From Actinoalloteichus caeruleus DSM 43889 (lineage in GTDB: Bacteria; Actinomycetota; Actinomycetes; Mycobacteriales; Pseudonocardiaceae), in the NCBI RefSeq assembly GCF_000429185.2, contig NZ_AUBJ02000001.1, forward strand, positions 2,356,001-2,420,000: DNA of 64,000 bases. The letters run 5' to 3'. Below the pieces are notes generated by a model. That model was not told the origin of the DNA, made no database searches, and saw only the letters and a list, made by a program, of their open reading frames with translations. Every line of letters starts with the position of its first letter. The first letter of the stretch is position 1. The translations under genes were made by a program, and so were the position numbers. Shown here piece by piece: positions 6,663 to 24,066 of this stretch.

Positions 6663-7016
6663 ATGACCGACACCGCGACCCGGACCGCGCTACGAGCGGT
6701 GCCGGAACTGGCCGGGATCTACGCGTTGACCCGCCGAGGCTGGCAGTGGACCTCGTTGTCCCCGGGCACCGGGACGCTGGTCGGCTGGTTCGCCTGGTCT
6801 GGCGGGCCGTTCGTGGACTGGTGCGTGATCCGGGGCTACGGGGAGGTCGAGGCCGTCCGGGTCCGCGACGGCGACGGGCTGGTCTGGCAGCGCTGCGGAT
6901 CGGTCGGCGTGGTCGCCGCTGAGCTGCGGGACCTTCCCCCACCGCACGCCCCAGGTGCGCCGCGCCTGCTGACAGGACGCCGGTGGCGACCACCCGGCGC
7001 ACTGCGCCTGCGGTAA
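6663..7016 (+). CDS. Unknown cytoplasmic protein (117 aa)
   Basis: The ATG start follows CCGGAGGACGACC. The protein has a compact, Trp-rich globular region (residues about 10-85: RRGWQWTSLSPGTGTLVGWFAWSG, then DWCVIRGYGEVEAVRVRDGDGLVWQRCG), with no membrane segment or signal peptide. The alternating hydrophobic pattern suggests a small beta-rich fold. I cannot assign a family. The 85 bases before it are also open in the frame that starts GTG at 6575 and overlaps the previous stop, hinting at a lost small gene. Confidence 0.6.
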   Translation: MTDTATRTALRAVPELAGIYALTRRGWQWTSLSPGTGTLVGWFAWSGGPFVDWCVIRGYGEVEAVRVRDGDGLVWQRCGSVGVVAAELRDLPPPHAPGAPRLLTGRRWRPPGALRLR

Positions 7017-7030
7017 CCACCCTCCCCCAA

Positions 7031-7070
7031 TTCCTTTTCCTTTTCCTTCTCCTTCTCCTTCTCCTTCTCC
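7031..7070. repeat. Hexanucleotide pyrimidine repeat in front of a cassette gene
   Basis: More than six tandem units of TTCCTT/CTCCTT form a 40-base pure pyrimidine tract ending 19 bases before the GTG at 7090. Slippage here would change the spacing between promoter or upstream gene and this start without altering a reading frame. The opposite strand is a pure GGAGAA-type purine repeat. Confidence 0.9.
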
Positions 7071-7089
7071 TGCGGACAGGAAGAACTCC

Positions 7090-7419
7090 GTGTACTACGT
7101 CATCAACCGCTGTCTGGAGCCGATCAACGCCCGCTCCTATCTCGGCCCGTTCCCCCGCTACCCGCAGGCGTTGCGGGCCTGGGGGTTCCGGGGCCAGGTC
7201 GTCCTGGCCGCCCTGGGCACCGCCGCGATGCGTTCGGAGGTCAGCACGGCGGGCCGCCTGTACTACCTGCTGCCCCGTGACCCCAGTCCTGGTCCCACCG
7301 GTGTTCCCGAGCTGGCACGGGGGCCGCTGCGGTGTCGGTACACCGCCGAGGCCCAGGCCGGTGAGGGGTTCCTCCTCGCGTCCCAGTTGCTGCCCGACCC
7401 CGTGCTCAGCGGCGCGTGA
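7090..7419 (+). CDS. Unknown cytoplasmic protein (109 aa)
   Basis: It starts GTG after ACAGGAAG. The sequence opens MYYVINRCLEPINARSYLGPFPRYPQALRAW and looks like a small soluble domain with no hydrophobic helix. GC3 is high and consistent with real coding. Its last codon overlaps the next start by four bases (GTGA at 7416-7419), so it is coupled to the downstream gene. I find no recognised domain. Confidence 0.6.
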   Translation: MYYVINRCLEPINARSYLGPFPRYPQALRAWGFRGQVVLAALGTAAMRSEVSTAGRLYYLLPRDPSPGPTGVPELARGPLRCRYTAEAQAGEGFLLASQLLPDPVLSGA

Positions 7420-8060
7420 CCACCATGAACCAGACACCAGAACCCACCGGTCACGCCGCTCTGTCGTTGGCGGGGGCCGCCCCACCGGCTGGGCCCTACC
7501 CGGCGCGGACACCCCTCGCTGAGGAACCGACCTCGCCCGCCGAGGCAACGACCGGGGCGGGCAGTGCCGGGGTGCGCGACGGGGACGACATCACCGGAGC
7601 CTGGCTCACCCGATGCGCGGTGCGCACCCCGATCGTGGGCCGGCTCTACGGGCATGTCGATGTGAACACCGGCCACGGGCCTCCTGTCGGACCGGGCCTG
7701 CGTTACCTGGTAGGGACCTTCGACCACCGTCGCCTCGTGCTGTGCGGGGCGGTGGTGCGGCACTGCGCCGAGTTCGACGAGCTCACCACGGCCACGATCG
7801 CCGAGATGCGGGACCTGGCCCGGCGGTGGCGGCTGGGGGAGTTCCTGCCGCCACCGACCACGATGAAACGCCGCCGCCGACGCGTCCCGGCGTGGGCGCG
7901 GGTGCGGTTCTGGTCCTGGGAGCCCGAGGTCGAGCTGGGCATCAGCTACGCGGGTCGGGTCAGTTTCAAACACGGCGACTGGGCCCGCATCGGCCCACAT
8001 CCGTCCAGCGTCCTCCCCATCGCGGACAGCAGTGGGGAGGACCGCAGCTACCCGACGTGA
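7416..8060 (+). CDS. Unknown protein (214 aa), last gene of the cassette
   Basis: The coupled GTG start is at 7416; an internal ATG lies three codons later. An N-terminal Pro/Ala/Thr-rich linker of about 55 residues leads into a conserved-looking region (DDITGAWLTRCAVRTPIVGRL, then RYLVGTFDHRRLVLCGAVVRHC, then ELTTATIAEMRDLARRWRLGEF). A basic patch MKRRRRR follows near residue 150, and then a Trp-rich end. The basic patch could bind nucleic acid, but no known motif is visible. No other gene follows on this strand until the pectate lyase. Confidence 0.62.
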   Translation: MTTMNQTPEPTGHAALSLAGAAPPAGPYPARTPLAEEPTSPAEATTGAGSAGVRDGDDITGAWLTRCAVRTPIVGRLYGHVDVNTGHGPPVGPGLRYLVGTFDHRRLVLCGAVVRHCAEFDELTTATIAEMRDLARRWRLGEFLPPPTTMKRRRRRVPAWARVRFWSWEPEVELGISYAGRVSFKHGDWARIGPHPSSVLPIADSSGEDRSYPT

Positions 8061-8363
8061 CCCCGCCGGGCACGACCTGCGGGATACCGCCGATCCTCCC
8101 GCGATCGCCACACCGGTTCCTCCTCCACGCGGGGGCCGTCGATGGGTCGTCACCGGGCGGGGCGCCGGCGGCCGCGACCGATGACGTGCGACGCCATTCC
8201 ACGTGTGTTCCGAATGGCGCAGCCATTGCTACCACCGCGTTCGCAGCTGACGGATCCACCCGGCGGAATCGGCGGAGGGAAAACGGTCGACAGGTATCGA
8301 ACGTACCGTCGACCGAATGTCGGACAAGGGCACCGAGGTGGTTAATCATTTGCCAACAGAGTG

Positions 8364-8393
8364 TTGACAGGGTGGAAACACGAGTCGTAGCCT
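8364..8393 (+). promoter_or_regulatory. Predicted sigma-70-type promoter of the pectate lyase
   Basis: A perfect -35 TTGACA (8364-8369) is followed after 18 bases by TAGCCT (8388-8393). Transcription would begin near 8400, about 210 bases before the start codon. Confidence 0.6.
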
Positions 8394-8403
8394 CCATCCC
8401 ACA

Positions 8404-8417
8404 GGGAAACGCTTTCC
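8404..8417. promoter_or_regulatory. Candidate LacI-family operator at the pectate lyase transcription start
   Basis: GGGAAAC|GCTTTCC is an imperfect palindrome centred on CG, matching at 5 of 7 symmetric positions. This is the layout of LacI-family operators. It lies just after the predicted transcription start, a position suited to repression. LacI-type control of polysaccharide-degrading enzymes is common in actinobacteria (CebR/CelR); the regulator itself is not in the window. Confidence 0.45.
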
Positions 8418-8611
8418 TCCTGGTAGAGACCTTGAGGACAACGGAGTCCAGGTCGCGCAACCCCCTAGGTCCCGAGCGGCGGACACGCCGGACGGGAAAC
8501 CCAGCGGAACGGAAAGAACCGGTCCGCGCGCACCCTGCCGCGAGCCGAATTCCACCCCCTCCACCGGTCGCCGCGCCCTCACTCCGACAACGGAAGAAGA
8601 GAGAGGCTGAC

Positions 8612-9607
8612 ATGAGGAAACGACTCGTCGGACGCCGGCTCGTCGCCGCCGGCGCGCTGTCCGCGCTCGCCGTGGGCTCGGTCCTGGGCGGCTCGGTGCT
8701 GGCGGCCGCCGAACCCTCCGAGCCCTGGTCAGCGCCGTACCAGGACGACCGGCCGATCGGCTGGGCCAGCGTTGACGAGAACGGCCAGAACGGCACCACC
8801 GGCGGGGCCGGCGGCGACACGGTGACCGCTTCCAACGCCGACCAGTTCCTCGACTACATCTCGCGGGACGAACCGCTGGTCATCGAGGTCGACGGCACGA
8901 TCCAGCTGTCCGGGATGGAACGGGTCAGCTCGGACAAGACGATCATCGGCGTCGGCACCAACGGCCACATCACCGGCGGCGGGCTCAAGCTGCGCTCGGT
9001 GAGCAACATCATCATCCGCAACCTGCACTTCTCCGACGCCAACGACGACTCGATCGACATGGAGGAGGGCACCCACCACGTCTGGGTCGACCACAACAGC
9101 TTCACCAACGCCAACGACGGCGCCGTCGACATCAAGCGTGAGTCCGACTTCATCACCGTCTCGTGGAACCGGGTCTACGAGCACGACAAGAGCATGATCC
9201 TGGGCCACTCCGACAACCACACCGCCGACATCGGGCACCTGCGCGTCACCTACCACCACAACTACTTCGACGGCAGCGACACCCGGCACCCGCGTGTGCG
9301 GTTCGGTGACCAGGTCCACGTGTTCAACAACTACTACCGGGCCAACAAGGAGTACGGGGTCGCCTCCACGATGAACGCGGGCGTCATCGTCGAGGGCAAC
9401 TACTTCGAGGACGTCGACACCCCCACCGAGGTCGGCTACGGCAGCTCCAGCGACGGCCGCATCGTCGCCAGGAACAACGTCCTCGACAACTCGGGTGAGA
9501 TCGCGACGGCGGGCAGCGTCGACGACCCGCCCTACTCCTACACCGTCGACAACCCGCAGAACATCCCGTCGCTGGTCGGCGGCGGCGCCGGGTACGGCAA
9601 CCTCTGA
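8612..9607 (+). CDS. pel: Secreted pectate lyase, polysaccharide lyase family 1
   Basis: The 331-residue enzyme cleaves de-esterified pectin (polygalacturonate) by calcium-dependent beta-elimination outside the cell. A Sec-type signal peptide is clear (MRKR, then a hydrophobic core, with probable cleavage after VLAAA). Family PL1 parallel beta-helix motifs follow in order: VWVDHNSF, DGAVDIKR with the catalytic-site Asp, SWNRVYEHDKSMILGHSD, TYHHNYFDGSDTRHPRVRFG with the catalytic Arg region, and VHVFNNYY. The ATG has a purine-rich AAGAGAGAGGC upstream. It is a single-gene unit with its own promoter and terminator, and implies growth on plant material. Confidence 0.97.
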   Translation: MRKRLVGRRLVAAGALSALAVGSVLGGSVLAAAEPSEPWSAPYQDDRPIGWASVDENGQNGTTGGAGGDTVTASNADQFLDYISRDEPLVIEVDGTIQLSGMERVSSDKTIIGVGTNGHITGGGLKLRSVSNIIIRNLHFSDANDDSIDMEEGTHHVWVDHNSFTNANDGAVDIKRESDFITVSWNRVYEHDKSMILGHSDNHTADIGHLRVTYHHNYFDGSDTRHPRVRFGDQVHVFNNYYRANKEYGVASTMNAGVIVEGNYFEDVDTPTEVGYGSSSDGRIVARNNVLDNSGEIATAGSVDDPPYSYTVDNPQNIPSLVGGGAGYGNL

Positions 9608-9681
9608 CCCCGCCCCGGCGGCCGAGCGCGTCGACCCGCCCAGGCGAGGTCCACCACCCCGACAGGTGACCCGCGCTCCCC

Positions 9682-9710
9682 GATGCCCCTGGCCCTCGGC
9701 CAGGGGCATC
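9682..9710 (+). terminator. Terminator of the pectate lyase gene
   Basis: A perfect 13-bp stem (GATGCCCCTGGCC / GGCCAGGGGCATC) with a 3-base loop lies 75 bases after the stop codon. Confidence 0.8.
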
Positions 9711-9756
9711 GTCGCCGTCCGGGACGGTCGCGGCCGCACGGGCCGAGGAGCGGCCG

Positions 9757-9784
9757 CCTCCCCTCCCCTCCCCTCCCCTCCCCC
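9757..9784. repeat. CCCTC pentanucleotide tandem repeat
   Basis: Five or so units of CCCTC run through this non-coding segment between the pectate lyase terminator and the kinase promoter. I see nothing else in the 9711-9930 stretch. Confidence 0.85.
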
Positions 9785-9931
9785 GCCCTCCCTGCCCGCC
9801 CAGCCGCCGACCGCCACGCGGGCGGCGGGCACGCAGCGCCGCCGACCAGCCACCCCGGGTGTCCCCGCTGGACGCCGCGCCCTCCCACCCGATCCGGACG
9901 GCCTCCCCGGGCCCGGTACGCGGGTTGGCTG

Positions 9932-9992
9932 TTCGGGCTTCGCGCCGGCCCTCTAACCTGTCGCGGTGGAACCGACGGGGAGACTCGGGTGA
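9932..9992 (+). promoter_or_regulatory. Leaderless mini-ORF and promoter coupled to the kinase start
   Basis: A -10-like TAACCT (9954-9959, with TTCGGG 16 bases before it) lies 6 bases upstream of GTG 9966, the spacing expected for a leaderless transcript. That GTG opens an 8-codon frame (VEPTGRLG) ending in TGA at 9990-9992. The stop overlaps the kinase GTG (9989-9991) as GTGA, so the mini-ORF may feed ribosomes to the kinase. Confidence 0.45.
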
Positions 9993-11564
9993 GCCAGGAG
10001 CAACGGAGGGTCGCCGACCGCTACCGGCTGGATGAGCGGATCGGCAGCGGAGCCATGGGCATTGTCTGGCGAGCCCATGATGAGCGGTTGAACCGCACCG
10101 TCGCCGTCAAACAGCTGCTCCAGCAGCCCGGACTGACTCCGGAGGAGGCCGAGGAGGCCCGGCAACGCGCGCTGCGCGAGGGCCGGATCGCGGCACGGCT
10201 GCAGCACGCGAACGCCATCGGCGTGTACGACGTGACCGAGCACGAGGGCCAGCCCTGCCTGATCATGGAGTACCTGCCCTCGCGGAGCCTGGCCACCGTG
10301 CTGGCCGAGGAGGGCACGCTCACCCCCGAACGGGCGGCGGCGATCGGAGCGCAGATCGCCACGGCGCTCAGCGTCGCGCACGCGGCCGGCATCGTCCACC
10401 GCGACGTCAAACCGGCCAACGTCCTGCTCGGGGAGGACGAGGTCGTCAAGATCACCGACTTCGGGATCTCCCGGGCGACCGGCGACGTCACGGTCACCAA
10501 GACGGGCATGTTCGCCGGCACCCCCGCCTACCTCGCCCCGGAGATCGCCCGGGGCAACGACTCGGTCTCCGCCTCCGACGTGTTCTCCCTGGGTGCGACC
10601 CTCTACGCCTCCGTGGAGGGCGACCCGCCCTTCGGCACCGAGGGCAACAGCCTCGCCCTCCTCCAGACCGTCGCCAAGGGCCGCATCAACCCCCCGCAGC
10701 AGTCCGGGCCCCTCGCGCCCGTCCTGGTGCACATGCTGCGGGCCGAGCCCCAGGACCGGCCGACGATGGCCGAGGTCCGGGAGGCGCTGCAGGCCGTCGC
10801 CGAGGGCTCCCCGCTCCCGCCGACCGTCCTGGCCGTCCCCGGCCTGACCCCCAGCACCCCGGCGGAGCCGACCGCGACCCGCGCCATGCCCGCGCCCCCC
10901 ACCCGCGGCCTGGCCGACACCGGCCCGATGACCGGCCCCATGACGGGCCCGATGACCGGCCCGATGACCGCGGTCGGCGGCGGACCGAGCGCCGAGACGG
11001 TGCCCGCCAAGACCGTGCCGGCCGCCAAGGCACCCGGGAACCCCACCCGGGTCAACCGGCCCACGGCCGCCGCCGCCCCGGCACGTCAAGCCGAGCCCGC
11101 CCCCGCCGAGGAGGAGTGGTGGCGGCGCCCTGCGGTGCTGGCCGGCGCCGGCGCGGCCGCCGTCGTGGTGGTCATCGTCGTCATCGTCACCGCGCTGTCC
11201 CTGGGGGACGACAACGAGACCCCGTCCGTGGCCCCGACACCGACACCACCACCACGACACCCGCCCCACCACACCCTCCGAGATCCCGACCACCGAGGAA
11301 CAGGGACCGGTCGACGAAGGGGCCGACCCCGGGTGGCAGCAACCCGCCCCACCACCCGCCAACGACTACCAGCCGGCACCCGACCAGGGCAGCGACACCA
11401 TCGACCAGCCCTCGGCCCCCGAGGTGACCGACGATGACCCCGTCGACCCACCGGACGACGACGACACCGAGCCCGCCGACCCGCCCGACACCGGCAACCC
11501 GCCCGGCGGGGACGAACCACCCCCCGGCCAGGGCAACCCGGAGAACACCCACAACACGCCGTGA
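9989..11564 (+). CDS. Membrane-anchored Ser/Thr protein kinase (PknB-like), extracellular tail frameshifted
   Basis: The Hanks-type kinase domain is complete: GSGAMGIVW loop, AVKQ lysine, HRDVKPANVLL catalytic loop, DFG, and AYLAPEIA. A Pro/Thr-rich linker with four TGPM repeats follows, then one transmembrane helix (AAAVVVVIVVIVTALSL). No PASTA domains are present. As read, the frame continues past the helix into Arg/His-rich sequence and stops at 11437. A second frame from about 11275 to the TGA at 11564 encodes an acidic, Pro-rich tail (SEIPTTEEQ, then DDDDTEPADPPDTGNPPGG) of normal actinobacterial type. A one-base change in the CACC-rich stretch 11235-11275 would join them. GGGGAGA precedes the GTG start. 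Substrates are unknown. Confidence 0.85.
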
Positions 11565-11577
11565 CGGCGCGCGCTCC

Positions 11578-12753
11578 TCACCGGAACGCGGCGATGCCCG
11601 TCAACGCACGGCCGATGGTGAGGGTGTGCACCTCGGCCGTGCCCTCGTAGGTGAGCACCGACTCCAGGTTGTTGGCGTGCCGCAGCGGCGAGTAGTCCAG
11701 GGTCACCCCGTTCGCGCCCAGTACCGTGCGGCACTCCCGGGCGATGCCGATCGCCTCGCGCACGTTGTTGAGCTTGCCCGCGCTCACCTGCTCCGGCCGC
11801 AGCCGGTCCCGTTCCTTCAACCGTCCCAGGTGGACGGCGAGCAGCGCGCACCCGCCGAGGCTGACCGCCATGTCCGCCAACTTGGCCTGCGTCAGCTGGA
11901 AACCGGCGATCGGCCGTCCGAACTGCTCCCGCGTCGACGCGTAGTCCAGGGTCGTGCGCAGGCAGTCCCGCGCCGCGCCCACCGCCCCGAAGACGATGCC
12001 GAACCGGGCCTCGTTCAGGCAGGACAGGGGAGCGCCGAGACCCTCGGCGTGGGGGAGCCGGGCCGTGTCCGGGAGGCGGACGTCCTCCAGGACCAGTTCG
12101 GAGGTGACCGAGGCCCGCAACGACAACTTCGCGGGGACGTCCACGGCACGGAAGCCCCTGGCCGTGGTGGGCACGAGGAAGCCGCGCACCCCATCCTCGG
12201 TGCGGGCCCACACCGTGGCGACGTCGGCGATCCCGCCGTTGGTGATCCACGTCTTCGTGCCGGTGAGCACCCAGTCGGAGCCGTCACGCACCGCGCGCGT
12301 CCGCATCGCGGCCGGGTCGCTGCCCGCGTCGGGTTCGGTCAGCGCGAAACAGCCGACAGCCTCCCCCGCCGCCAGCCGGGGCAGCCACTCCCGCTTCTGC
12401 TCCTCCGACCCGTACCGCCAGATCGAGAACATCGACAGCGACCCCTGCACCGACACGAAGCTCCGCAGGCCGCTGTCCACCGACTCCAGCTCCAGGCACG
12501 CCAACCCGTAGGCGACGGGGCCGAGCCCGGCGCAGCCGTACCCCGTCAGGTGCATGCCCAGCACCCCGAACGCGCCCAGCTCCCGCGCGAGGTCGCGGTC
12601 GAACACCCCTCGCTCGAAGCGGTCGGCGACGCCGGGCCGCGCCCGCGCGTCGAGGAAGTCGGCGAGACCACGTTGGATCTCCCGTTCCTCCTCGGTCAGC
12701 AACGAGTCGATGTCCAGTAGCGCCAGCGGATCCGGCATCGGGGGACGTGCCAC
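11578..12753 (-). CDS. gcdH: Acyl-CoA dehydrogenase, glutaryl-CoA dehydrogenase type
   Basis: The 391-residue FAD enzyme belongs to the acyl-CoA dehydrogenase family. Visible features: RSFVSVQGSLSMFSIWRYGSEEQK and LTEPDAGSDP (FAD/substrate region), KTWITNGG, STREQFGRPI, and TYEGTAEVHTLTIGR near the C-terminus, holding the catalytic glutamate position of the glutaryl-CoA branch. Family members oxidise and decarboxylate glutaryl-CoA to crotonyl-CoA in lysine/tryptophan breakdown; exact substrate is inferred. It starts GTG 12753 with GAGG upstream; ATG 12738 is an alternative. It ends 13 bases from the convergent kinase and stands alone. Confidence 0.88.
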   Translation of the reverse strand: MARPPMPDPLALLDIDSLLTEEEREIQRGLADFLDARARPGVADRFERGVFDRDLARELGAFGVLGMHLTGYGCAGLGPVAYGLACLELESVDSGLRSFVSVQGSLSMFSIWRYGSEEQKREWLPRLAAGEAVGCFALTEPDAGSDPAAMRTRAVRDGSDWVLTGTKTWITNGGIADVATVWARTEDGVRGFLVPTTARGFRAVDVPAKLSLRASVTSELVLEDVRLPDTARLPHAEGLGAPLSCLNEARFGIVFGAVGAARDCLRTTLDYASTREQFGRPIAGFQLTQAKLADMAVSLGGCALLAVHLGRLKERDRLRPEQVSAGKLNNVREAIGIARECRTVLGANGVTLDYSPLRHANNLESVLTYEGTAEVHTLTIGRALTGIAAFR

Positions 12754-13041
12754 GGTGTCGACCTCGCCTTCGTCGGCGGTTCAGGGCCTTCCGCGGCAGA
12801 GCCTGCCACAACTCGGGGCTCCCGCGTCGGCGACGTCGGCCCTCGCCGCCGCTCGCCGGCGGCGCTCCGGGCCCACCGGGGACGCCTCCGCGTGGAGCAC
12901 CCCACCGGGGTCGGGTGGCGTTCACGCCGAAGGGCGGTAGGGCGCGGCGACGGTGCCGGTTCCGGTCGGTCGGCCGGGGAGGGACGTCGACCGCGTCCTG
13001 GCCTCGGCGGCGCGTGCGCACCGCCAGGCGAGGAGCCGCGA

Positions 13042-13451
13042 ATGAGGACGTCCGCACGTCGGAGCCGCACCGCCCTGGCCGCGCTGTTCCTCATGCTCGT
13101 CGCCTCCGTGGTCCCGCCCGGCGCCGCGGCGGCCGCCTCCTACGGCGGGCAGCGCGGCTCCGGGTACTCGGTGGTGAACTCCCTGGACCTCGTCGAGGCC
13201 ACCGTCTTCCTCACCTACAACGCGGGCAACGGGAACAACCGCGTGGCCGTCGGGAACACCCCCGGCGACCGGCTGTTGACGAACGTCTGGCTGAAGCGGT
13301 CGCCCGAGACCCCCGCCGACTGGCGGCACGACCGCGGTTTCCTCACCACCTACGCGGGGCCGGTGCACCGGCCGCCGCCGGCACCCGCGTGGACTGGGGC
13401 GGGTACCACAACGGTTCGGAGGACACCCGGTACGGCACGAACCGCGGCTGA
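13042..13451 (+). pseudogene. SapA-like (spore-associated protein A) secreted protein, frameshifted and cysteine-less
   Basis: ATG 13042 follows GCGAGGAG and opens a signal peptide (MRTSARRSR, hydrophobic core, cleavage near GAAAAAS). The mature part, GYSVVNSLDLVEATVFLTYNAGN and TTYAGPV, matches the SapA-type family as I recall it. After TTYAGPV (13365) the match moves to another frame (GTRVDWGGYHNGSEDTRYGTNRG, stop 13449-13451), so a one-base deletion is likely in 13365-13385. The four positions where I expect conserved cysteines (QRGSGY, NNRVAV, GTRVDW, TNRG) all read Arg (CGC instead of TGC). It is either a decaying gene or a sequence error plus real divergence. Confidence 0.65.
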
Positions 13452-13507
13452 CCCGGCATCAGCGCGGCCAGCCCGCCGCCGGGGCGCTGACGACCCCGTG
13501 CCGCCGG

Positions 13508-14179
13508 CTAGGAGCCGACGACGGCCAACGCGAAACCGTCGTAGCCCTTGGCGCCCACGGTCTGCACGGCGGTCGCCGACAGGCGCGGCTCGTCCGCCAC
13601 GAGCTCCAGGAAGGACCGGACGCCCTCCACGGCCCCGTCACCGCTGTCCGGGTCCGCGACCCGCCCGCCCCGCACGACGTTGTCGGCGATCAGCACGGTT
13701 CCCGGGCGGGACAGGCTCAGCGAGTAGTCCAGGTAGGCCGGGTACCCCTGCTTGTCCGCGTCGAGGAAGATCAGGTCGAACGGGCCCATCCCCGCCGTGA
13801 CGAGCTGCGCCATCGTCTGCTGGGCCGGGCCGATGTGGATGTCCACCTTCCCGAGCAGCCCGGCCGCCTCCAGGTTCGACCGCGCGACCTCGGCGTGCCT
13901 CGGGTCCCCCTCCAAGGTGACGAGCCGCCCGTGTTCGGGGAGGGCACGACCCAACCACACGGTGCTGTACCCGCCGAGCGTTCCCACCTCCAGGATCGTG
14001 TGGGCCCGGGTGATCACCGCGAGGAGGTGGAGCAGCTTCCCCTGGTTGGGGGCGACGTTGATCGGGGGGAGCCCGGCCGCCGCGCTGGCGGACAGGACGT
14101 GGTCGAGCACCGGGTCCTCGGGCACCAGCAGCCCGGTCAGGTAGTCGTCGACCTCGGCCCAGCGGTCCTGCGACGGCAT
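13508..14179 (-). CDS. SAM-dependent O-methyltransferase (caffeoyl-CoA OMT family)
   Basis: The 223-residue class I methyltransferase has the family signature: LEVGTLGGYSTVWLGRAL (SAM motif I), LVTLEGD, DLIFLDADKQGYPAYLDYSL and ADNVVRGGRV (metal/SAM region). Such enzymes methylate catechol-type hydroxyls with Mg2+; the bacterial substrate is usually unknown. Start 14179 was chosen for the strong GGGAGGAGG upstream. It is monocistronic and converges with the SapA remnant. Confidence 0.9.
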   Translation of the reverse strand: MPSQDRWAEVDDYLTGLLVPEDPVLDHVLSASAAAGLPPINVAPNQGKLLHLLAVITRAHTILEVGTLGGYSTVWLGRALPEHGRLVTLEGDPRHAEVARSNLEAAGLLGKVDIHIGPAQQTMAQLVTAGMGPFDLIFLDADKQGYPAYLDYSLSLSRPGTVLIADNVVRGGRVADPDSGDGAVEGVRSFLELVADEPRLSATAVQTVGAKGYDGFALAVVGS

Positions 14180-15254
14180 CAGCGCCTCCTCCCGAACGGC
14201 CCGTCCGACTCTACTGCCACGGGAGGCCGACGGCGGGCCGCGCGCGATGAGGAGGTCGCACGGCACCCCCGACCGGGCGGATGGCCTCGGGCCCCCAACC
14301 CGAGGCCGGGCCCGTGCCCCGTGCGAGGCCGCAGCCAGCCACCCCCATGGCTGGCGCCGTCCACGCACGAGGCACCTTCCTCCCCCGAGGACGCGTTCCC
14401 TCCGCCCCGTTCCCCCCTCCGGTGAAACGGAACCCCCGCGATGGGACGCTGTCCGAATGGAGGCGAACCGCGCCGGTACCACCAACGTGGTCTCCTCCGT
14501 CGTGCTGTCCGCGCTTCACCTGATTCAGCCGTTCCCGTTCACGAGAACACTCGCGAACGGGATCCGGATGCTCCCCCAGCATTGCGCGGACACCCCCATG
14601 CCCGGTGACCGACGGTCGGTCAGTCACCAGCTGAATTTCTAACACGGATGACCGACGGAACCGCAATCGACTCCGGGTTCCCCAATCCCCCGAACGAGCG
14701 GGTCCCACCTCGGCCGCGCCGCGACCGCCAAGCGCGGGATGCGGCATCCACGCTGGTCACACACGCATTCTTCCCTCCACGGCGAATAGGGCCAGCCTCG
14801 GAGGGTGTCGACCGTCGACAGTGAATTTCCTTCTATCGGAGTAACGATAACCGCGATGTGGGGGATACGCTGCGGAGTCCCGCGTGCACGCAGCGCACTA
14901 ACGCGCTCGCTCAAATCAAGATCATCTTCTCGCGCGCACCACGAGCGGGGCGCCACACGCCACGCAATGCGAGCGAATTGCCCTCGGAAAGACGCTCCGA
15001 GGCAATCACCGTCAACTTTCCACGACCACTCCCGACACCTCGAAACAATCAGCCGGAACCAACGGTCCGGCGGATTCCCACCGGACCGGAACACCACTCA
15101 CCCCAGACCGCCCGGCTGGCTGGCGGACGGCGGACGGCGGACGGCGGACGGCGGACGGAACCCCCACCCCGGGAACCTCGCCGCCCAGGACCGGGACCAC
15201 CCACCCGCCGACACACCACCGGAAATCCCGTTGTCGCCCCGGTACCCCCGCGCG
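14180..15254. other. Gene-free region of about 1 kb
   Basis: No ORF here looks real on either strand. The segment 14420-15060 is clearly less GC-rich than its surroundings. It has two inverted repeats: TCCCGTTC (14533-14540) with GAACGGGA (14555-14562), and GGTGAC/GTCACC near 14604-14629. A heptanucleotide repeat (15122-15156) is listed separately. It may hold the O-methyltransferase promoter and a lost gene. Confidence 0.5.
15122..15156. repeat. Five tandem GGCGGAC units
   Basis: Five perfect, contiguous copies of GGCGGAC span 35 bases of non-coding DNA about 100 bases before the P-loop kinase gene. It is a simple variable-number repeat, with no spacers. Confidence 0.95.
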
Positions 15255-15857
15255 ATGCTGCTGCCCGTGACCGAACCCCCGAACACCTCCACCAGCGACA
15301 CCCCACCCCCGCTCACCGGCGTGCTCGTCCTCACCGGAGTGATGGCCGCCGGCAAGACCACCGTCGCGCGGACCCTCGCCGACCGCCTCCCGCGCTCGGC
15401 CCACGTCGGCGGCGACGCCTTCCTCCGCATGGTGCGCGGCGGCCGCGAGGACATGACCCCCCACCCCACCCAGGAGGCCCGACGACAGCTGCGCCTCCGA
15501 CACCGCCTGACCGCGCACACCGCCGACCTCCTCGCCGAGGAGGGCTTCACCGTCGTCGTCGAGGACATCCTGATCGGACCCGACCTGACCCGGTTCCTGG
15601 CCACGCTCCGCACCCGACCCCTGCGCCTCGTCGTCCTCGCCCCCACCCCTCGGGCCATCGCCGACCGCGAACGCGAGCGCACCAAGGACGGCTACCTGAC
15701 CTGGGACGTCGCCACCCTCGACGGCCTGCTCCGCGCGGACACCCCCCGCCAGGGGCTCTGGTTGGACACCTCCGACCAGACGCCCGCCGCCACCGTCGAG
15801 GACATCCTGGCCCGCGCGGACGAGGCACTGGTGACCCCGGACCGGCGGGACGACTGA
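15255..15857 (+). CDS. P-loop phosphotransferase (AAA_33 / chloramphenicol phosphotransferase-like)
   Basis: The 200-residue protein has a Walker A motif GVMAAGKTT (about residue 28), then HVGGDAFLRMVRGG (the HVxGDxFR-type substrate loop), EEGFTVVVEDILIGPDL (Walker B-like strand) and a lid with RERERTKDGYLTWDV. Members of this kinase fold phosphorylate small molecules or nucleotides, including antibiotics; the substrate here is not deducible. No Shine-Dalgarno precedes ATG 15255; GTG 15267 and GTG 15319 are alternatives, and translation may be leaderless. It reads toward the metallophosphoesterase 128 bases downstream. Confidence 0.75.
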   Translation: MLLPVTEPPNTSTSDTPPPLTGVLVLTGVMAAGKTTVARTLADRLPRSAHVGGDAFLRMVRGGREDMTPHPTQEARRQLRLRHRLTAHTADLLAEEGFTVVVEDILIGPDLTRFLATLRTRPLRLVVLAPTPRAIADRERERTKDGYLTWDVATLDGLLRADTPRQGLWLDTSDQTPAATVEDILARADEALVTPDRRDD

Positions 15858-15973
15858 CCGGCCCCGGCCCCACCTCGGGCGTCCACCTCGGACCAGCACC
15901 CCGCACCGCCACGCCGCCACCTCGAAGGACCCGGGCCACCGCGACGGGGACCCGACCACCGGGCGCGCTCGGG

Positions 15974-15985
15974 TAGCCTGCCGGG
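15974..15985 (+). promoter_or_regulatory. -10 box implying a leaderless transcript
   Basis: TAGCCT (15974-15979) is followed by exactly 6 bases before the ATG at 15986, and no Shine-Dalgarno is present. Transcription would start at or next to the ATG. Confidence 0.5.
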
Positions 15986-16855
15986 ATGGCCCGGTCCCTG
16001 CTCGCCACCAGCGATCTGCACGTGTCACACGAGGGCAACAGCGAGGTGGTGGAGCGGCTCCGCCCCTACACGCCCGAGGACTGGCTCATCGTCGCCGGCG
16101 ACGTCGGGGACACCGTCACCGAGATCACCTGGACGCTCGACCTGCTGGCGCGGCGGTTCGCCAAGGTCATCTGGGTGCCGGGCAACCACGAACTGTGGAC
16201 GACCTCGCGTGACACGGTCAAGGCACGCGGCGAGGAGCGCTACCGCATCCTGGTCGACGTCTGCCGCGAACTCGGCGTCCTGACCCCGGAGGACCCCTTC
16301 CCCGACTGGGAGACCGAGGACGAGACCTTCACCATCGCCCCACTGTTCACCCTCTTCGACTACAGCTTCCGCGAACCCGGGCTCTCCTTCGAGGCCGCCA
16401 TGAGGGACGCCCACGAGACCGGCGTCGTCGGCACCGACGACATGCTGCTGCACCCGGACCCGCACCCCACCCGGCAGGCGTGGTGCGCGGAACGCATCCG
16501 CTACTCCGAGAGCCGGCTCGACGCCGTGGCCCCGGACCGCCGCACCATCCTCGTGTCGCACTGGCCGCTGCACCGCGGCCCCACCACCATGCTGTGGTAC
16601 CCGAGGTTCGCGATGTGGTGCGGCACCACCGCCACCGGCGACTGGCACCTGCGCTACCGGGCGGCCGTGGCGGTGTACGGGCACCTGCACATCCCGCTGA
16701 CCTTCGACTTCGACGGAGTCCGGTTCGAGGAGGTCTCCCTGGGCTACCCCCGCGAGTGGCGGCGGCGCACCCCCACGCCCTACCCGATCCGCCGCATCCT
16801 GCCGGCCGACCCGAGCCGCACGACCTCGAACCACCTGCTGCCCGGTCACCGGTGA
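15986..16855 (+). CDS. Metallophosphoesterase (calcineurin-like)
   Basis: The 289-residue cytoplasmic protein shows the dimetal phosphoesterase motifs in order: SDLHVSH at the N-terminus, GDVGD (about residue 39), PGNHELW (about 70), LVSHWPLHRG (about 190) and YGHLHIP (about 232). The activity is hydrolysis of a phosphomono- or diester with two bound metals; the substrate is unknown. Similar proteins occur near phosphopantetheinyl transferase genes in other actinobacteria, but none lies here. It ends 37 bases from the convergent GH15 gene. Confidence 0.9.
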   Translation: MARSLLATSDLHVSHEGNSEVVERLRPYTPEDWLIVAGDVGDTVTEITWTLDLLARRFAKVIWVPGNHELWTTSRDTVKARGEERYRILVDVCRELGVLTPEDPFPDWETEDETFTIAPLFTLFDYSFREPGLSFEAAMRDAHETGVVGTDDMLLHPDPHPTRQAWCAERIRYSESRLDAVAPDRRTILVSHWPLHRGPTTMLWYPRFAMWCGTTATGDWHLRYRAAVAVYGHLHIPLTFDFDGVRFEEVSLGYPREWRRRTPTPYPIRRILPADPSRTTSNHLLPGHR

Positions 16856-16892
16856 GCCGCCAGGCCGAGGACCCCGGCCCGCCCCGGCTCGC

Positions 16893-18728
16893 TCAGCCCA
16901 TCGCCCGGTCGAGGTTGACCGCCGCGCTGATCAACGCGAGGTGGGTGAAGGCCTGCGGGAAGTTGCCGAGCTGCTCCCCGGTGAGGCCGATCTGCTCGGC
17001 GTAGAGACCGAGGTGGTTGGCGTAGGTGAACGTCTTCTCCAGGGCGACCCGCGCCTCCGACAGCCGACCCGCCCTGGTCAGCGCCTCCACGTACCAGAAC
17101 GAACAGATGGAGAACGTCCCCTCCGAACCCCACAGGCCGTCCGGCGCCTGTTCCGGGTCGTAGCGGAAGACGAGGCTGTCGACGACGAGGCCCTCGCGGA
17201 TGGCGTCCAGGGTGGACAGGAAACGCGGGTCGGTGGGTGAGCAGAACTTGACCATCGGCATCAGCAGCAGCGACGAGTCGAGCACGTCGTCGTCGTAGTT
17301 CTGCACGAACGCCTGCCGGCGTTCGCTCCACCCCCGCTCCATGATCTGCCGGTACACCCGGTCGCGGGTCCGCATCCACGAGTCCAACGGCCCGGGGAGG
17401 CCGCGCTGCCGCGCCATCCGGATCATGCGCTCGAACGCCACCCAGGTCATCAGCCGGGAGAAGGTGTGGTCCCTCGGACCAGACCGCACCTCCCAGATGC
17501 TCTCGTCCGGCTGGTCCCAGTGCTCACCCAGCCAGTCCAGCACGCCGATGAGGTCCTGCCAGCTGTCGTAGGAGATGCCGGTCCCGTACTTGTTGTAGAG
17601 GTAGACGGAGTCGATGATCTCGCCGTAGATGTCGAGCTGGAGCTGGTCGGACGCGTCGTTGCCGATCCGCACCGGCCGGGCCCCCCGGTATCCCTCCAGG
17701 TGGTCCAGGGTGCGCTCGGGGAGCTCGGGGTCCCCGTCGATCGAGTACATCACCCGCAGCGGACCGGCCTGGCCCTCCCGGGGCCGGCGGAACCGCCGCG
17801 TCAGCCACTCCATGAAGGCGTCCGCCTCCGAGGTGAAGCCGAGCCGGAGCAGGGCGTAGAGCGAGAAGGCCGCGTCCCGCATCCACACGTACCGGTAGTC
17901 CCAGTTGCGTTCACCACCCAGGTCCTCGGGGAGGCTGGCCGTCGGCGACGCGATGACGGCGCCGCTGGGCTCGTGCGTCAGGAGCTTGAGCGTCAGGGCC
18001 GACCGGTGGACCTTCTCCCGCCAGCGGCCGCGGTAGGTGGACCTGGCCAACCAGCCCCGCCAGAAGTCGACGGTCCGCCGGAACAGCTCCTCGGCGTCCT
18101 CGGCGTGGTGGTGGTTGGCCCGCTGGCCGCTCTCCAGGGCCTCCAGCACGAAGAGCTCGGTCTCCCCCGCGCTGACCACGAACTCGCCGTGCGCGTCGCC
18201 GTTCCGGTCCACGTCGAGATCGACCGTCGCCCCGACGCCCAGCACGGTGTCGCGGCCGACGAAGCACAACCCGTCGCGGTCGCGGCGCACCTCGTGGGGG
18301 TCACGGCCGTAGTCGAGCCGGGGGGCGAGGGTGACCCGCATCCGCATGGACCCCCGGAGCCCCAACACCCGCCGCACCAGCCGCTGGTGGTGGTCGGGGT
18401 CCCGTTCCCGCAGCACCGGCATGAAGTCGTGGACCTCGACCATGCCCTCCTCGGTGAGGAAGCGGGTGATGAGGACGTTGGTGTCCGGGAAGTAGAACTG
18501 CTGGGTGCCGGCGACCCGGCAGTCCGGGCTGATCCGCCAGTACCCGCCGCGCTCCGCGTCCAGCAGGCTCCCGAACACGCTCGGGGAGTCGAAACGCGGG
18601 CAGCAGAACCAGGAGACGGTGCCGTCGGTGCCCACGAGGGCGGCGGTGCGCAGGTCCCCGATCAGGCCGTGGTCGGCGATGGGGGGATAACGGCTGTCGT
18701 CGGTCCGCTCGGCATCGTCGGGGCGCAT
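16893..18728 (-). CDS. Glycoside hydrolase family 15 (glucoamylase/trehalase-like)
   Basis: The 611-residue protein has an N-terminal beta-sandwich region (PPIADHGLIGDLRTAALVGTDGTVSWFCCPRFDSPSVFG) followed by an (alpha/alpha)6 barrel. Barrel motifs are NWDYRYVWMRDAAFSLYALLRLG, DIYGEIIDSVYLYNKYG, WEVRSGPRDHTFSRLMTWVAFER, EGTFSICSFWYVEAL (catalytic Glu region) and GNFPQAFTHLALI. Mycobacterial members act as trehalases; others release glucose from alpha-glucans, so the substrate is open. No signal peptide is present, so it acts in the cytoplasm. GAGGGATG precedes the ATG. It stands alone. Confidence 0.92.
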   Translation of the reverse strand: MRPDDAERTDDSRYPPIADHGLIGDLRTAALVGTDGTVSWFCCPRFDSPSVFGSLLDAERGGYWRISPDCRVAGTQQFYFPDTNVLITRFLTEEGMVEVHDFMPVLRERDPDHHQRLVRRVLGLRGSMRMRVTLAPRLDYGRDPHEVRRDRDGLCFVGRDTVLGVGATVDLDVDRNGDAHGEFVVSAGETELFVLEALESGQRANHHHAEDAEELFRRTVDFWRGWLARSTYRGRWREKVHRSALTLKLLTHEPSGAVIASPTASLPEDLGGERNWDYRYVWMRDAAFSLYALLRLGFTSEADAFMEWLTRRFRRPREGQAGPLRVMYSIDGDPELPERTLDHLEGYRGARPVRIGNDASDQLQLDIYGEIIDSVYLYNKYGTGISYDSWQDLIGVLDWLGEHWDQPDESIWEVRSGPRDHTFSRLMTWVAFERMIRMARQRGLPGPLDSWMRTRDRVYRQIMERGWSERRQAFVQNYDDDVLDSSLLLMPMVKFCSPTDPRFLSTLDAIREGLVVDSLVFRYDPEQAPDGLWGSEGTFSICSFWYVEALTRAGRLSEARVALEKTFTYANHLGLYAEQIGLTGEQLGNFPQAFTHLALISAAVNLDRAMG

Positions 18729-19111
18729 CCCACATCCCTCACGCTCGTCCGCCAGGCGGCCCGACCCCGACTCGTCGGTGCCACGACCGGACGCGCCCTT
18801 CCCTTCCTCCGATCGACCGTAACGCGACTGGCTGGTCGTCGCTGATGACGAGATCGCCGGGGGAAGGCACCAGGAGCACCAGGGAGGTGAATTTCATTCA
18901 TGACTGATGGGACAGGGCGGACGAACCCCACGGGGGAGGCGACCTCGCGGAAGGGTGGGCCGCGGGCAGGATGGGCGCGCGCCGGCACCGGTGAGCCGAC
19001 CGGCCTGGGCGGGGACGGCCGCCGCCGCTCCGGGGAGGGGAGGGGCGGATCGGGCCGGCGGGAGTGGGCGCGCGGAAGAATCCGGTGGACACGCCCCCTA
19101 CCGTCGCCAGG
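18729..19111. other. Divergent intergenic region with small palindrome
   Basis: This holds the promoters of the GH15 gene (minus) and the hydrolase gene (plus). TGAAT-TTC-ATTCA (18888-18900) is a 13-base palindrome next to GGAGGTG, itself a perfect-looking ribosome site ahead of ATG 18900. The 71-codon frame that follows is Arg/Gly-rich with poor codon bias and I do not call it a gene. Confidence 0.45.
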
Positions 19112-19909
19112 GTGATCACTCGTCGTTCCGTCACCCTGAACGGTCGTGCCCACTCCGTCCTCGACTCCGGCGGCGACGGACCGCCGCTGCTGGCCCTGCA
19201 CGGCACCTTCGGGCGGTCGGACATCTTCGCCAGGCTGGCCGCCGACCTCGCCCCCGACTGGCGCGTCATCGCCCCCGACCAGCGCGGGCACGGCCGCTCA
19301 CCCCGGGGTGGGGACTTCTCCCGGCGGGCCTTCGTCGACGACGCCGCCGCCCTCGCCGCCTCGCTCGCCACCGGCCCGGTGGCCGTCCTCGGTCACTCCC
19401 TCGGGGGGCTGAACGCCTACCAGCTGGCCGCCCACCACCCCGACCTGGTGCGCGCGCTGGTCGTCGTCGACAACGGGGCCGTCACCGGCCCGCCCGAGGT
19501 GCCCACCCCGATCCTCGACGTCCGCGACTGGCCCCGGCTCGCGCCCAGCAGGCAGGCCCTCGCCGACCACCTCGCCGAAGCGGGGATCCCGGTGGCCGAC
19601 TACTTCCTCGCCAGCGCGGAGCCCGCCCCGGGCGGCGGCTGGCGGTACTGCTTCGACCTCGACGACATGATGGCCGTGCAACGGGCCGGGGTGGGCGACT
19701 GGTGGCGGGACTGGCTGGGATCGTCGTGCCCGGCGCTGCTGCTGCGGGGGGAGCACAGCCACCTGCTGTCAGCCGACCACGCCCGGGACATGGTGCGCAG
19801 GAGGACCGCGCCCACCTCCCTGGTGGAGTTCCCCGGCTGCGGCCACTGGCTGTACGAGGACGACCCCGTGCGCTTCGCCGACACCGTCCGGGAGTTCCTC
19901 GGCCGCTGA
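19112..19909 (+). CDS. Alpha/beta hydrolase
   Basis: The 265-residue protein has the alpha/beta hydrolase layout: LLALHGTFGRSD (oxyanion strand), VIAPDQRGHGRS, VLGHSLGGLNAY with the nucleophile Ser, and GCGHWLYEDDP with the catalytic His. Substrate is not predictable; there is no signal peptide. I prefer GTG 19112 because TACCGT (19099-19104) stands 7 bases upstream, a leaderless arrangement. An upstream GTG at 19064 gives 281 residues but adds an atypical basic extension. Confidence 0.85.
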   Translation: MITRRSVTLNGRAHSVLDSGGDGPPLLALHGTFGRSDIFARLAADLAPDWRVIAPDQRGHGRSPRGGDFSRRAFVDDAAALAASLATGPVAVLGHSLGGLNAYQLAAHHPDLVRALVVVDNGAVTGPPEVPTPILDVRDWPRLAPSRQALADHLAEAGIPVADYFLASAEPAPGGGWRYCFDLDDMMAVQRAGVGDWWRDWLGSSCPALLLRGEHSHLLSADHARDMVRRRTAPTSLVEFPGCGHWLYEDDPVRFADTVREFLGR

Positions 19910-19943
19910 CGCCCGCCAGTGGTGCCGCGGACGTCAGCCCCTC

Positions 19944-19972
19944 CCCGGCCCCCGCCGCCAGCGGGGGCCGGG
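19944..19972. terminator. Bidirectional hairpin between hydrolase and PH-domain genes
   Basis: A perfect 12-bp stem (CCCGGCCCCCGC / GCGGGGGCCGGG) with a 5-base loop lies between two convergent genes. Confidence 0.75.
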
Positions 19973-20016
19973 ACCCGGCGACCTCACCTCGGCGGGGCCA
20001 CCGGGCACCGGCTGGG

Positions 20017-20541
20017 TCACCTCGCGGTGGGCGCCGAGGGTTCCGCCCCCTCGACCGCCGGTTCCACGACCTCGACGCCGGTGTGCCGCCGGTGCAGACG
20101 ACGGACCTCGCGCATCGCCCGCACCGCCCGGTGCCGGTCGGCGGCCTGGATCGCCATCACGGCGATGTACTCGTCGTCCGGCAGTTCGATCCGCGCCCAC
20201 GGCACGCCCTCGGGGAAGGTCACGGCCCGCACCAGCGGCCACTCCACCGTCCGGCTGACGAGGATGTTCCGCACCTCGACACCCTGGGGCCCGACCCGCA
20301 ACCGGGGGCGCGCCAACAGCAGGGCGGCCCCGGCGAGCAGACAGCCCAACAGCACCATCGCCACCTGGTCCGAGGTGCCGAAGAACGCCCCGGTGGGGGT
20401 CTCCTTCAGCAGCACGGCCACCACCGTGAACACCGAGACGAGGGACACTGCCGCGCCGACGGCCACCAGCCGCACCCGCCAGGGACGGACCACCAGCGTC
20501 CCGTCGCCGCCCTCCGGCCCGGTCTGGTCCTCAGTCAACAC
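20017..20541 (-). CDS. PH-domain membrane protein linked to ribH
   Basis: The 174-residue protein has two transmembrane segments (residues about 27-47 and 60-82), followed by a bacterial PH-like domain (LRVGPQGVEVRNILVSRTVEWPLVRAVTFPEG, then ARIELPDDEYIAVMAIQAADRHRA). A protein of this type commonly follows ribH in actinobacteria; its function is not known. GTG 20541 or TTG 20538 are both possible starts after GAGGAG; the TTG has the better spacing. The C-terminal tail is Glu/Pro/Ala-rich. Confidence 0.85.
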   Translation of the reverse strand: MLTEDQTGPEGGDGTLVVRPWRVRLVAVGAAVSLVSVFTVVAVLLKETPTGAFFGTSDQVAMVLLGCLLAGAALLLARPRLRVGPQGVEVRNILVSRTVEWPLVRAVTFPEGVPWARIELPDDEYIAVMAIQAADRHRAVRAMREVRRLHRRHTGVEVVEPAVEGAEPSAPTAR

Positions 20542-20594
20542 CCGCTCCTCACACTCACTCCGGCCGCTCGCCGGACCGACAGGACCGACACGCC

Positions 20595-22992
<2,398 letters not shown>

Positions 22993-23199
22993 GATGCGTG
23001 CTGCCTCCTCACGAGCCCGACCGAGGGCTCACCCCGTCCGACACCTCTACTCTCCCACTGGACACGGCGCGCGGACAGGATCGGGTTGACCAGTTGACGG
23101 GCCTCACACACGGCACCGGCCGCTGACCAGGCGTGATCGGTGGGGGTGAGCCTGGCCGGCCGACCGGTTGACCAGCGTCGACCCAGGGTTCCCGGCCGC

Positions 23200-23895
23200 T
23201 CAGCCCCGGTCGGGGGCCGCCGAGCGGGCCCGGTCCCGCAGCGCCTCCACCGCCGCCCCGGGGTCCTCCGCCCCGTACACGGCCGACCCCGCCACGAAGC
23301 AGTCCACCCCGGCCTCGGCCGCCGCCTCGATGGTGTCGGCGCTGATGCCGCCGTCGATCTCGACCAGCACGTTGAGGTGCCCGGTGTCCACCAGCCGGCG
23401 GACCTGGCGCACCTTGTCCAGGACCTCCGGCATGAACGCCTGCCCGCCGAAACCGGGCTCGACCGACATCACCAACAGCGTGTCGTAGTGCCGCAGCACG
23501 TCCAGGTACGGCTCCAGCGGGGTTCCCGGCTTGAGGGACAGGCCGGCGAGGGCGCCGGCGGCCCGGATGTCCCTGGCCACGCCGATCGGGTCGGTGGCCG
23601 CCTCCACGTGCACCGTGACGTTGTGCGCACCGGCCTCCGCGTAGCCGACCGCCCAGCGGTCCGGGTCGGAGATCATCAGGTGGCAGTCCAGCGGGATGTC
23701 CGTGGCCGCGCGCAGCGAGGTGACGACCGGCAGGCCGAGGGTCAGATTGGGCACGAAGTGCGCGTCCATCACGTCCACGTGCAGCCAGTCCGCGCCTCGC
23801 CGGTCGGCGCTCGGAGCCACGGCGGCGGCCTCCTCGGCGAGGCGGGCGAAGTCGGCGGAGAGGATGGAGGGCGCGATCATGAGCTCGGAGGACAC
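23200..23895 (-). CDS. rpe: Ribulose-phosphate 3-epimerase
   Basis: The TIM-barrel enzyme interconverts ribulose-5-P and xylulose-5-P in the pentose phosphate pathway. Motifs: [29 protein letters not shown] (metal ligands), [28 protein letters not shown] and EIDGGIS. The 231-residue length is normal. GTG 23895 was chosen because TAGACT lies exactly 6 bases upstream with no Shine-Dalgarno, indicating a leaderless message; ATG 23880 is the alternative. It is a close neighbour of the riboflavin operon, as in other actinobacteria. Confidence 0.95.
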
Positions 23896-23907
23896 GGGGG
23901 CAGTCTA
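23896..23907 (-). promoter_or_regulatory. -10 box for leaderless rpe
   Basis: On the minus strand TAGACT (23907-23902) is followed by 6 bases and then GTG 23895. This is the same geometry as at 15974. Confidence 0.5.
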
Positions 23908-24066
23908 GGAGCGGGCCGACCGGCGGGGCGCGCCCAGGCGCCCAGGGCAACGGTGGGAGGCCGCCGGCCACGGCGCTCCGACGACCCCGGACCGACGGGA
24001 AGGAGCCGCCGGGCACGGCGCTTCACGGGGTGGACCACGCGGCGGAACGCCTCCGACGCCCCCGGC

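Follow-up and report, generated by a model that had tools for sequence, protein, structure and literature searches.

A SapA-like gene of Actinoalloteichus caeruleus with arginine at all four cysteine positions of its family

In Streptomyces, spore-associated protein A (SapA) is a protein associated with the spore surface. For small exported proteins more generally, the cysteines that form disulfides are among the last residues to change. Here, we analyzed a window of 64,000 nucleotides from Actinoalloteichus caeruleus DSM 43889 (contig NZ_AUBJ02000001.1, positions 2,356,001 to 2,420,000), in which an earlier note, made from the sequence alone, had pointed out a SapA-like protein with arginines at all of its expected cysteines. 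The natural loss of a single disulfide in a secreted protein is described for drosomycin variants with three disulfides (PMC4999892). The window protein resembles these variants in belonging to a disulfide-stabilized secreted family with members that are missing bridges, but whereas the drosomycin variants keep three bridges of four, the window protein keeps no family cysteine, and all four are replaced by arginine. Among the matches listed from the SapA and disulfide-loss literature, no title or abstract opening describes a cysteine-free SapA.

The region at 13042-13451 of the window (forward strand, as are the parts of the gene given below) encodes a single-domain SapA-like protein with a predicted signal peptide, the open frame of which is not intact but is interrupted by a single slip. 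Just upstream of the ATG at 13042, an AGGAG resembling a ribosome-binding site is found at about 13030-13034. From this start codon, frame 1 runs through a predicted Sec-type signal peptide (13042..13137), recognized by eye on the translation from its arginine-rich start, hydrophobic core, and alanine run and with a putative cleavage site, and then continues into the SapA domain to about 13365. While this first part of the domain (13138..13368) is identified by both its composition and its homology to other SapA proteins, among them a single-domain gene from genome G023 of the same taxonomic family (L003), the remainder starts at about 13368 in a frame shifted by one and ends with the stop codon TGA at 13449-13451 (13368..13451). 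A frameshift had been noted near 13365-13385, and one is present in this assembly, as a slip by one base at 13366..13374 that the L003 alignment supports. Here, codon positions 1, 2, and 3 have a G+C content of 0.65/0.56/0.97 ahead of the slip (13042-13365) and of 0.62/0.65/0.92 beyond it (13374-13451), and the cysteine-bearing L003 gene has values of 0.55/0.59/0.91. As the codon-position signal is unfaded, translation of the frame probably lasted until recent times, or continues today if the slip should be an error.

The gene as it stands today probably gives a truncated and inactive product. Alternatively, the cysteine-free protein could be functional at present and the slip an assembly or sequencing error, given that the coding signal is seen both before and after the slip, that the ribosome-binding-like site, start codon, and predicted signal peptide are all intact, and that the slip sits in a repetitive GC-rich stretch. 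We regard this as unlikely, however, since the gene is lost in the sister genome of the genus (G001) and since, of the 12 proteins predicted in the window that could be matched to the sister contigs, 11 are aligned in one frame, by which frame errors are seemingly uncommon. The one that breaks is the predicted protein at 157-2625, which matches sister contig L122 in two frames with the break at residue 275, so that one or the other assembly has a frameshift there.

With regard to family membership, the window protein shares 49% sequence identity with L003 over residues 7-135 (E 2.4e-27), with both halves of the frame covered, and a profile built without the window gave 54 bits for its first part. 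None of the Pfam and NCBIfam models was significant when the window protein itself was scanned, and the family is one that we take to be the spore-associated protein A (SapA) family of Streptomyces. Like L003, a Streptomyces humidus gene (L010), and a Kitasatospora fiedleri plasmid copy, the last of which is annotated as 'spore-associated protein A', the window protein has the same domain length and, judged by eye, a signal peptide. Moreover, the G-x-G-Y, L-x-Y-N, A-G-P-V, and V-D-W-G-G stretches are conserved between the window protein and its single-domain relatives, though it differs from them in lacking all four family cysteines and in its one frame slip. Searches of the same genome show one other SapA domain, at a distance of about 13.8 kb and a little beyond the left end of the window (C1:2355245; L002:961-1800), as the C-terminal part of a protein that we presume from its sequence to be M23-peptidase-like. 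This paralogous domain is homologous to that of the window protein (38-40% identity), but the paralogue has two domains, four cysteines, and an intact frame, and its four cysteines are kept in both genomes of the genus. Within the taxonomic family, SapA matches were found in 181 of 390 genomes, and many of the fetched loci have the two-domain M23-SapA form. Up to three single-domain SapA genes in a row occur at L083, L084, L090, and L094, all from family f31 of the class, presumably Micromonosporaceae.

To look for a wider cysteine-free subfamily, the cysteine-free window protein was used as the query against 60 genomes, 394 genomes from the class, and 390 from the taxonomic family, and sequences were fetched for three sets of 30 loci and for another 40 regions, which are part of the matches. 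SapA domains were located in the open frames of the fetched loci using a profile made from seven homologues without the window, and this gave, from the fetched part of the database matches, 133 distinct domains from 109 genomes or records, among which the same domain may be included more than once when cut at different ends. This count includes neither the window copy nor the sister orthologue, nor any loci that duplicate them. All letters in the four family columns are cysteine (131/131, 133/133, 133/133, and 124/124, respectively), and the rows with a gap there (2, 0, 0, and 9) have it at ragged ends. Since no other letter is found in these columns, the cysteine positions given in the earlier note are the right ones, and we confirmed that the window has CGC (Arg) at each of them, i.e., at 13153..13155 (Cys 1), 13240..13242 (Cys 2), 13386..13388 (Cys 3), and 13443..13445 (Cys 4). 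At Cys 2, the loop of the window protein lacks one residue compared with that of L003, for which reason the MAFFT alignment has a gap in the window row. Here, the sister gene reads R-V-V-T (translated by eye), which settles the register and puts an arginine on the Cys 2 position. As for how these codons came about, all 36 cysteine codons in the domains of nine relatives are TGC, which makes one T-to-C change each the likely path to CGC.

We also asked how selective this loss is, using the conserved columns of a 118-domain alignment. Of the 13 columns with at least 95% conservation, the window protein keeps all nine non-cysteine residues and none of the four cysteines. At the thresholds of at least 90%, 80%, and 70%, it keeps 15 of 16, 21 of 23, and 28 of 33 non-cysteine residues, respectively, and again none of the four cysteines. 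The corresponding hypergeometric P values are 0.0014, 0.0010, 0.00085, and 0.0019 (95, 90, 80, and 70%). A neutral joint probability was also calculated as the maximum over time for losing the four cysteines while keeping 15 other residues, with the 16th column (lost in the window) left out. For four codon models with varied bias, the largest value was 7e-5 to 1.1e-4, while for a model with T-to-C plus A-to-G changes it was at most 1.2e-4 and for the most generous, T-to-C-only model at most 2.1e-3, these figures being for the one observed pattern and not tail tests. As the cysteine pattern was picked after the fact for looking striking, all of these probabilities serve as guides. Nonetheless, the hypergeometric and neutral models both agree with the original remark that chance would hardly remove both disulfides through one and the same kind of change, with the disulfides themselves being presumed. 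The replacement of the four cysteines in the window protein is a real and correctly read anomaly, with fair statistical support for a cysteine-specific loss, and one for which neutral decay by itself accounts poorly.

We predicted the structure of the L003 domain from an alignment of 55 rows, and this gave a model with eight strands and a mean pLDDT of 96.6. In this model, the cysteines at residues 7, 36, 84, and 103 are found within strands 1, 3, 7, and 8 or next to them, and the strand order would suggest that they pair as 7-36 and 84-103 (Cys1-Cys2 and Cys3-Cys4). That the cysteines of the SapA family form disulfides is likewise a presumption. Structure searches with the L003 model revealed no clear fold relative but only middling matches to beta-sandwiches of a fibronectin-III-like or CBM56-like kind, with a best E of 0.021 in Foldseek and a best Z of 7.3 in VIA, which is within the usual background. 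Two arginines side by side where a disulfide had been should destabilize the fold, and this counts against the explanation that we favor below.

Selection for a basic surface had been offered as one reason for the arginines, though this is not borne out by the charge of the protein. The net charge of +1 is mid-family (range -9 to +10, median 0, n=55), and the pI of 8.36 is also inside the family range and under the upper quartile (8.43, with a median of 6.26), by which we rejected this candidate. That the four changes are all of one type could instead suggest a local process turning T into C, be it hypermutation targeted at the gene or systematic errors in base calling. This is very improbable, however, as out-of-frame TGC is kept at 13094 and 13364 and 18 TG dinucleotides are left in the window gene, which argues against a TGC- or TG-directed mutator, and as the M23-SapA paralogue just outside the window still has its cysteines. 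Moreover, the separately assembled sister genome has CGG, GGG, and CGG rather than CGC at the positions that it retains. Another candidate, that the genus lost its extracellular machinery for making disulfides and exported cysteines became useless, would account for a purge of exported cysteines. Yet both the window genome and its sister encode VKOR, which suggests that exported disulfides can probably be made there and rules out a loss of the machinery as far as VKOR goes. As the M23-SapA paralogue also keeps its four cysteines in both genomes, we consider this candidate close to negligible.

The genus sample comprises two genomes, i.e., that of the window and the sister G001, and in both of them the sapA gene has the same neighbors, with what we take to be an acyl-CoA-dehydrogenase-like gene on the left and an O-methyltransferase-like gene on the right. 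Among 25 acyl-CoA-dehydrogenase loci fetched together with some 1.5 kb of flanking sequence, none but those of these two genomes has a methyltransferase beside this gene, and there is therefore no outgroup at the sapA place. The sister orthologue is dead, with the start codon gone, an in-frame TGA, several small indels, and the loss of a stretch of about 90 bases in which Cys 1 lay. The codons at Cys 2, 3, and 4 are the aforementioned CGG, GGG, and CGG, which read as Arg, Gly, and Arg. Before the slip, the differences between the window and sister genes are spread over codon positions 1, 2, and 3 (24/78, 30/77, and 16/78; 0.31/0.39/0.21), which argues that there is no protein-level constraint in this part of the sister gene. 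After the slip, the differences are lower and nearly flat (3/24, 5/24, and 5/23). In addition, the G+C content by codon position is partly faded in the sister gene (0.745/0.723/0.911 versus 0.657/0.604/0.96), and the sapA-plus-intergenic stretch has a G+C content of 0.80 in the sister versus 0.76 in the window. The intergenic region at 12754-13041 differs at 90 of 277 sites (global alignment) and has diverged as much as sapA, as unconstrained DNA would behave.

When identity to the sister genome was followed in 250-base bins over the aligned part of the window (6863-23947), the lowest value (0.72) was in the bin at 13250-13499, where sapA ends, and the other bins outside 13750-17000 were at 0.77-0.99. 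A stretch of near-identity is seen at 13750-17000 (0.976-1.00 per 250 bases), and in sequence terms the region at 13700-17000 looks like a recently exchanged segment, its left edge being just to the right of the sapA gene.

From these comparisons, the cysteine loss common to the window and sister genes, with arginine shared at two of the positions, would most simply be ancestral. On the other hand, 9 of the 22 window T sites that align to the sister differ there, and so the cysteines may also have been lost independently in the dying sister gene. The earlier note had raised the possibility of a cysteine-free subfamily, and this stands for a lineage of one genus, in which the window copy has none of four cysteines and the sister none of the remaining three, but no cysteine-free homologue from outside the genus was seen among the 133 domains from the fetched part of the matches. 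The tree gives the window row no firm placement, though its end branch (0.76, against a median of 0.22) is longer than most and fits with relaxed constraint.

Decay had also been suggested in the earlier note, and part of this is upheld, in that the sister orthologue is dead and the window copy has a single slip, but why the cysteines were singled out stays unexplained by it. In its plainest form, the gene would have died in the ancestor, and a GC-ward mutation bias would have hit the four cysteine codons with nothing special about them. This fits with the dead sister copy and its very GC-rich sapA-plus-intergenic stretch, with the frame slip in the window copy, and with the first-base T-to-C change being the only transition that raises the G+C content of TGC. 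Nevertheless, we find it doubtful, as the other conserved residues are kept, including five that are sensitive to T-to-C changes (three Tyr, Leu, and Trp), as the codon-position composition of the window gene is unfaded, and as there is one frame-breaking indel in the window against several in the sister.

The explanation that we favor, while holding it to be about evenly poised between right and wrong, is that the ancestor of the genus purged both presumed disulfides while its fold was under selection and that the gene later died or became frame-slipped. The ancestral protein would have been a secreted, single-domain SapA-like protein of beta strands, with two presumed disulfides that could be dispensed with. 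One partner of a disulfide may have been lost, after which the orphaned partner would have followed, and this would have happened twice. In the window copy, each cysteine would have become arginine by a T-to-C transition, as favored by a GC-rich genome, with the remaining domain presumably staying under selection during the stepwise replacement. Later, the gene would have become needless, ending up as a pseudogene in the sister and frame-slipped in the window, the latter either recently or through an assembly error. The order of these events and the selection on a cysteine-free fold are suggested by the selectivity of the loss and by the sister gene, whereas the dead sister gene and the frame slip are seen directly, in one assembly each. 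A stronger proposal is that one genus had a functional family member with arginines in place of both disulfides, that selection favored this form itself, and that the gene disappeared only afterwards, but we give it little credence.

The weight of the finding is modest, as it concerns a single and probably already inactive gene of one small genus, with a depth of two genomes. This is a minor gene and a probable dead end, and there is probably little consequence for the cell. Even so, it is unusual to see the presumed disulfides of a protein shed so cleanly, and the case raises the question of whether disulfides can be shed while a fold is under selection or whether disulfide loss is the first step of gene death. 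If the reading of a functional cysteine-free protein is true, this gene would represent a natural experiment in which every disulfide of a beta-strand domain was removed at once.
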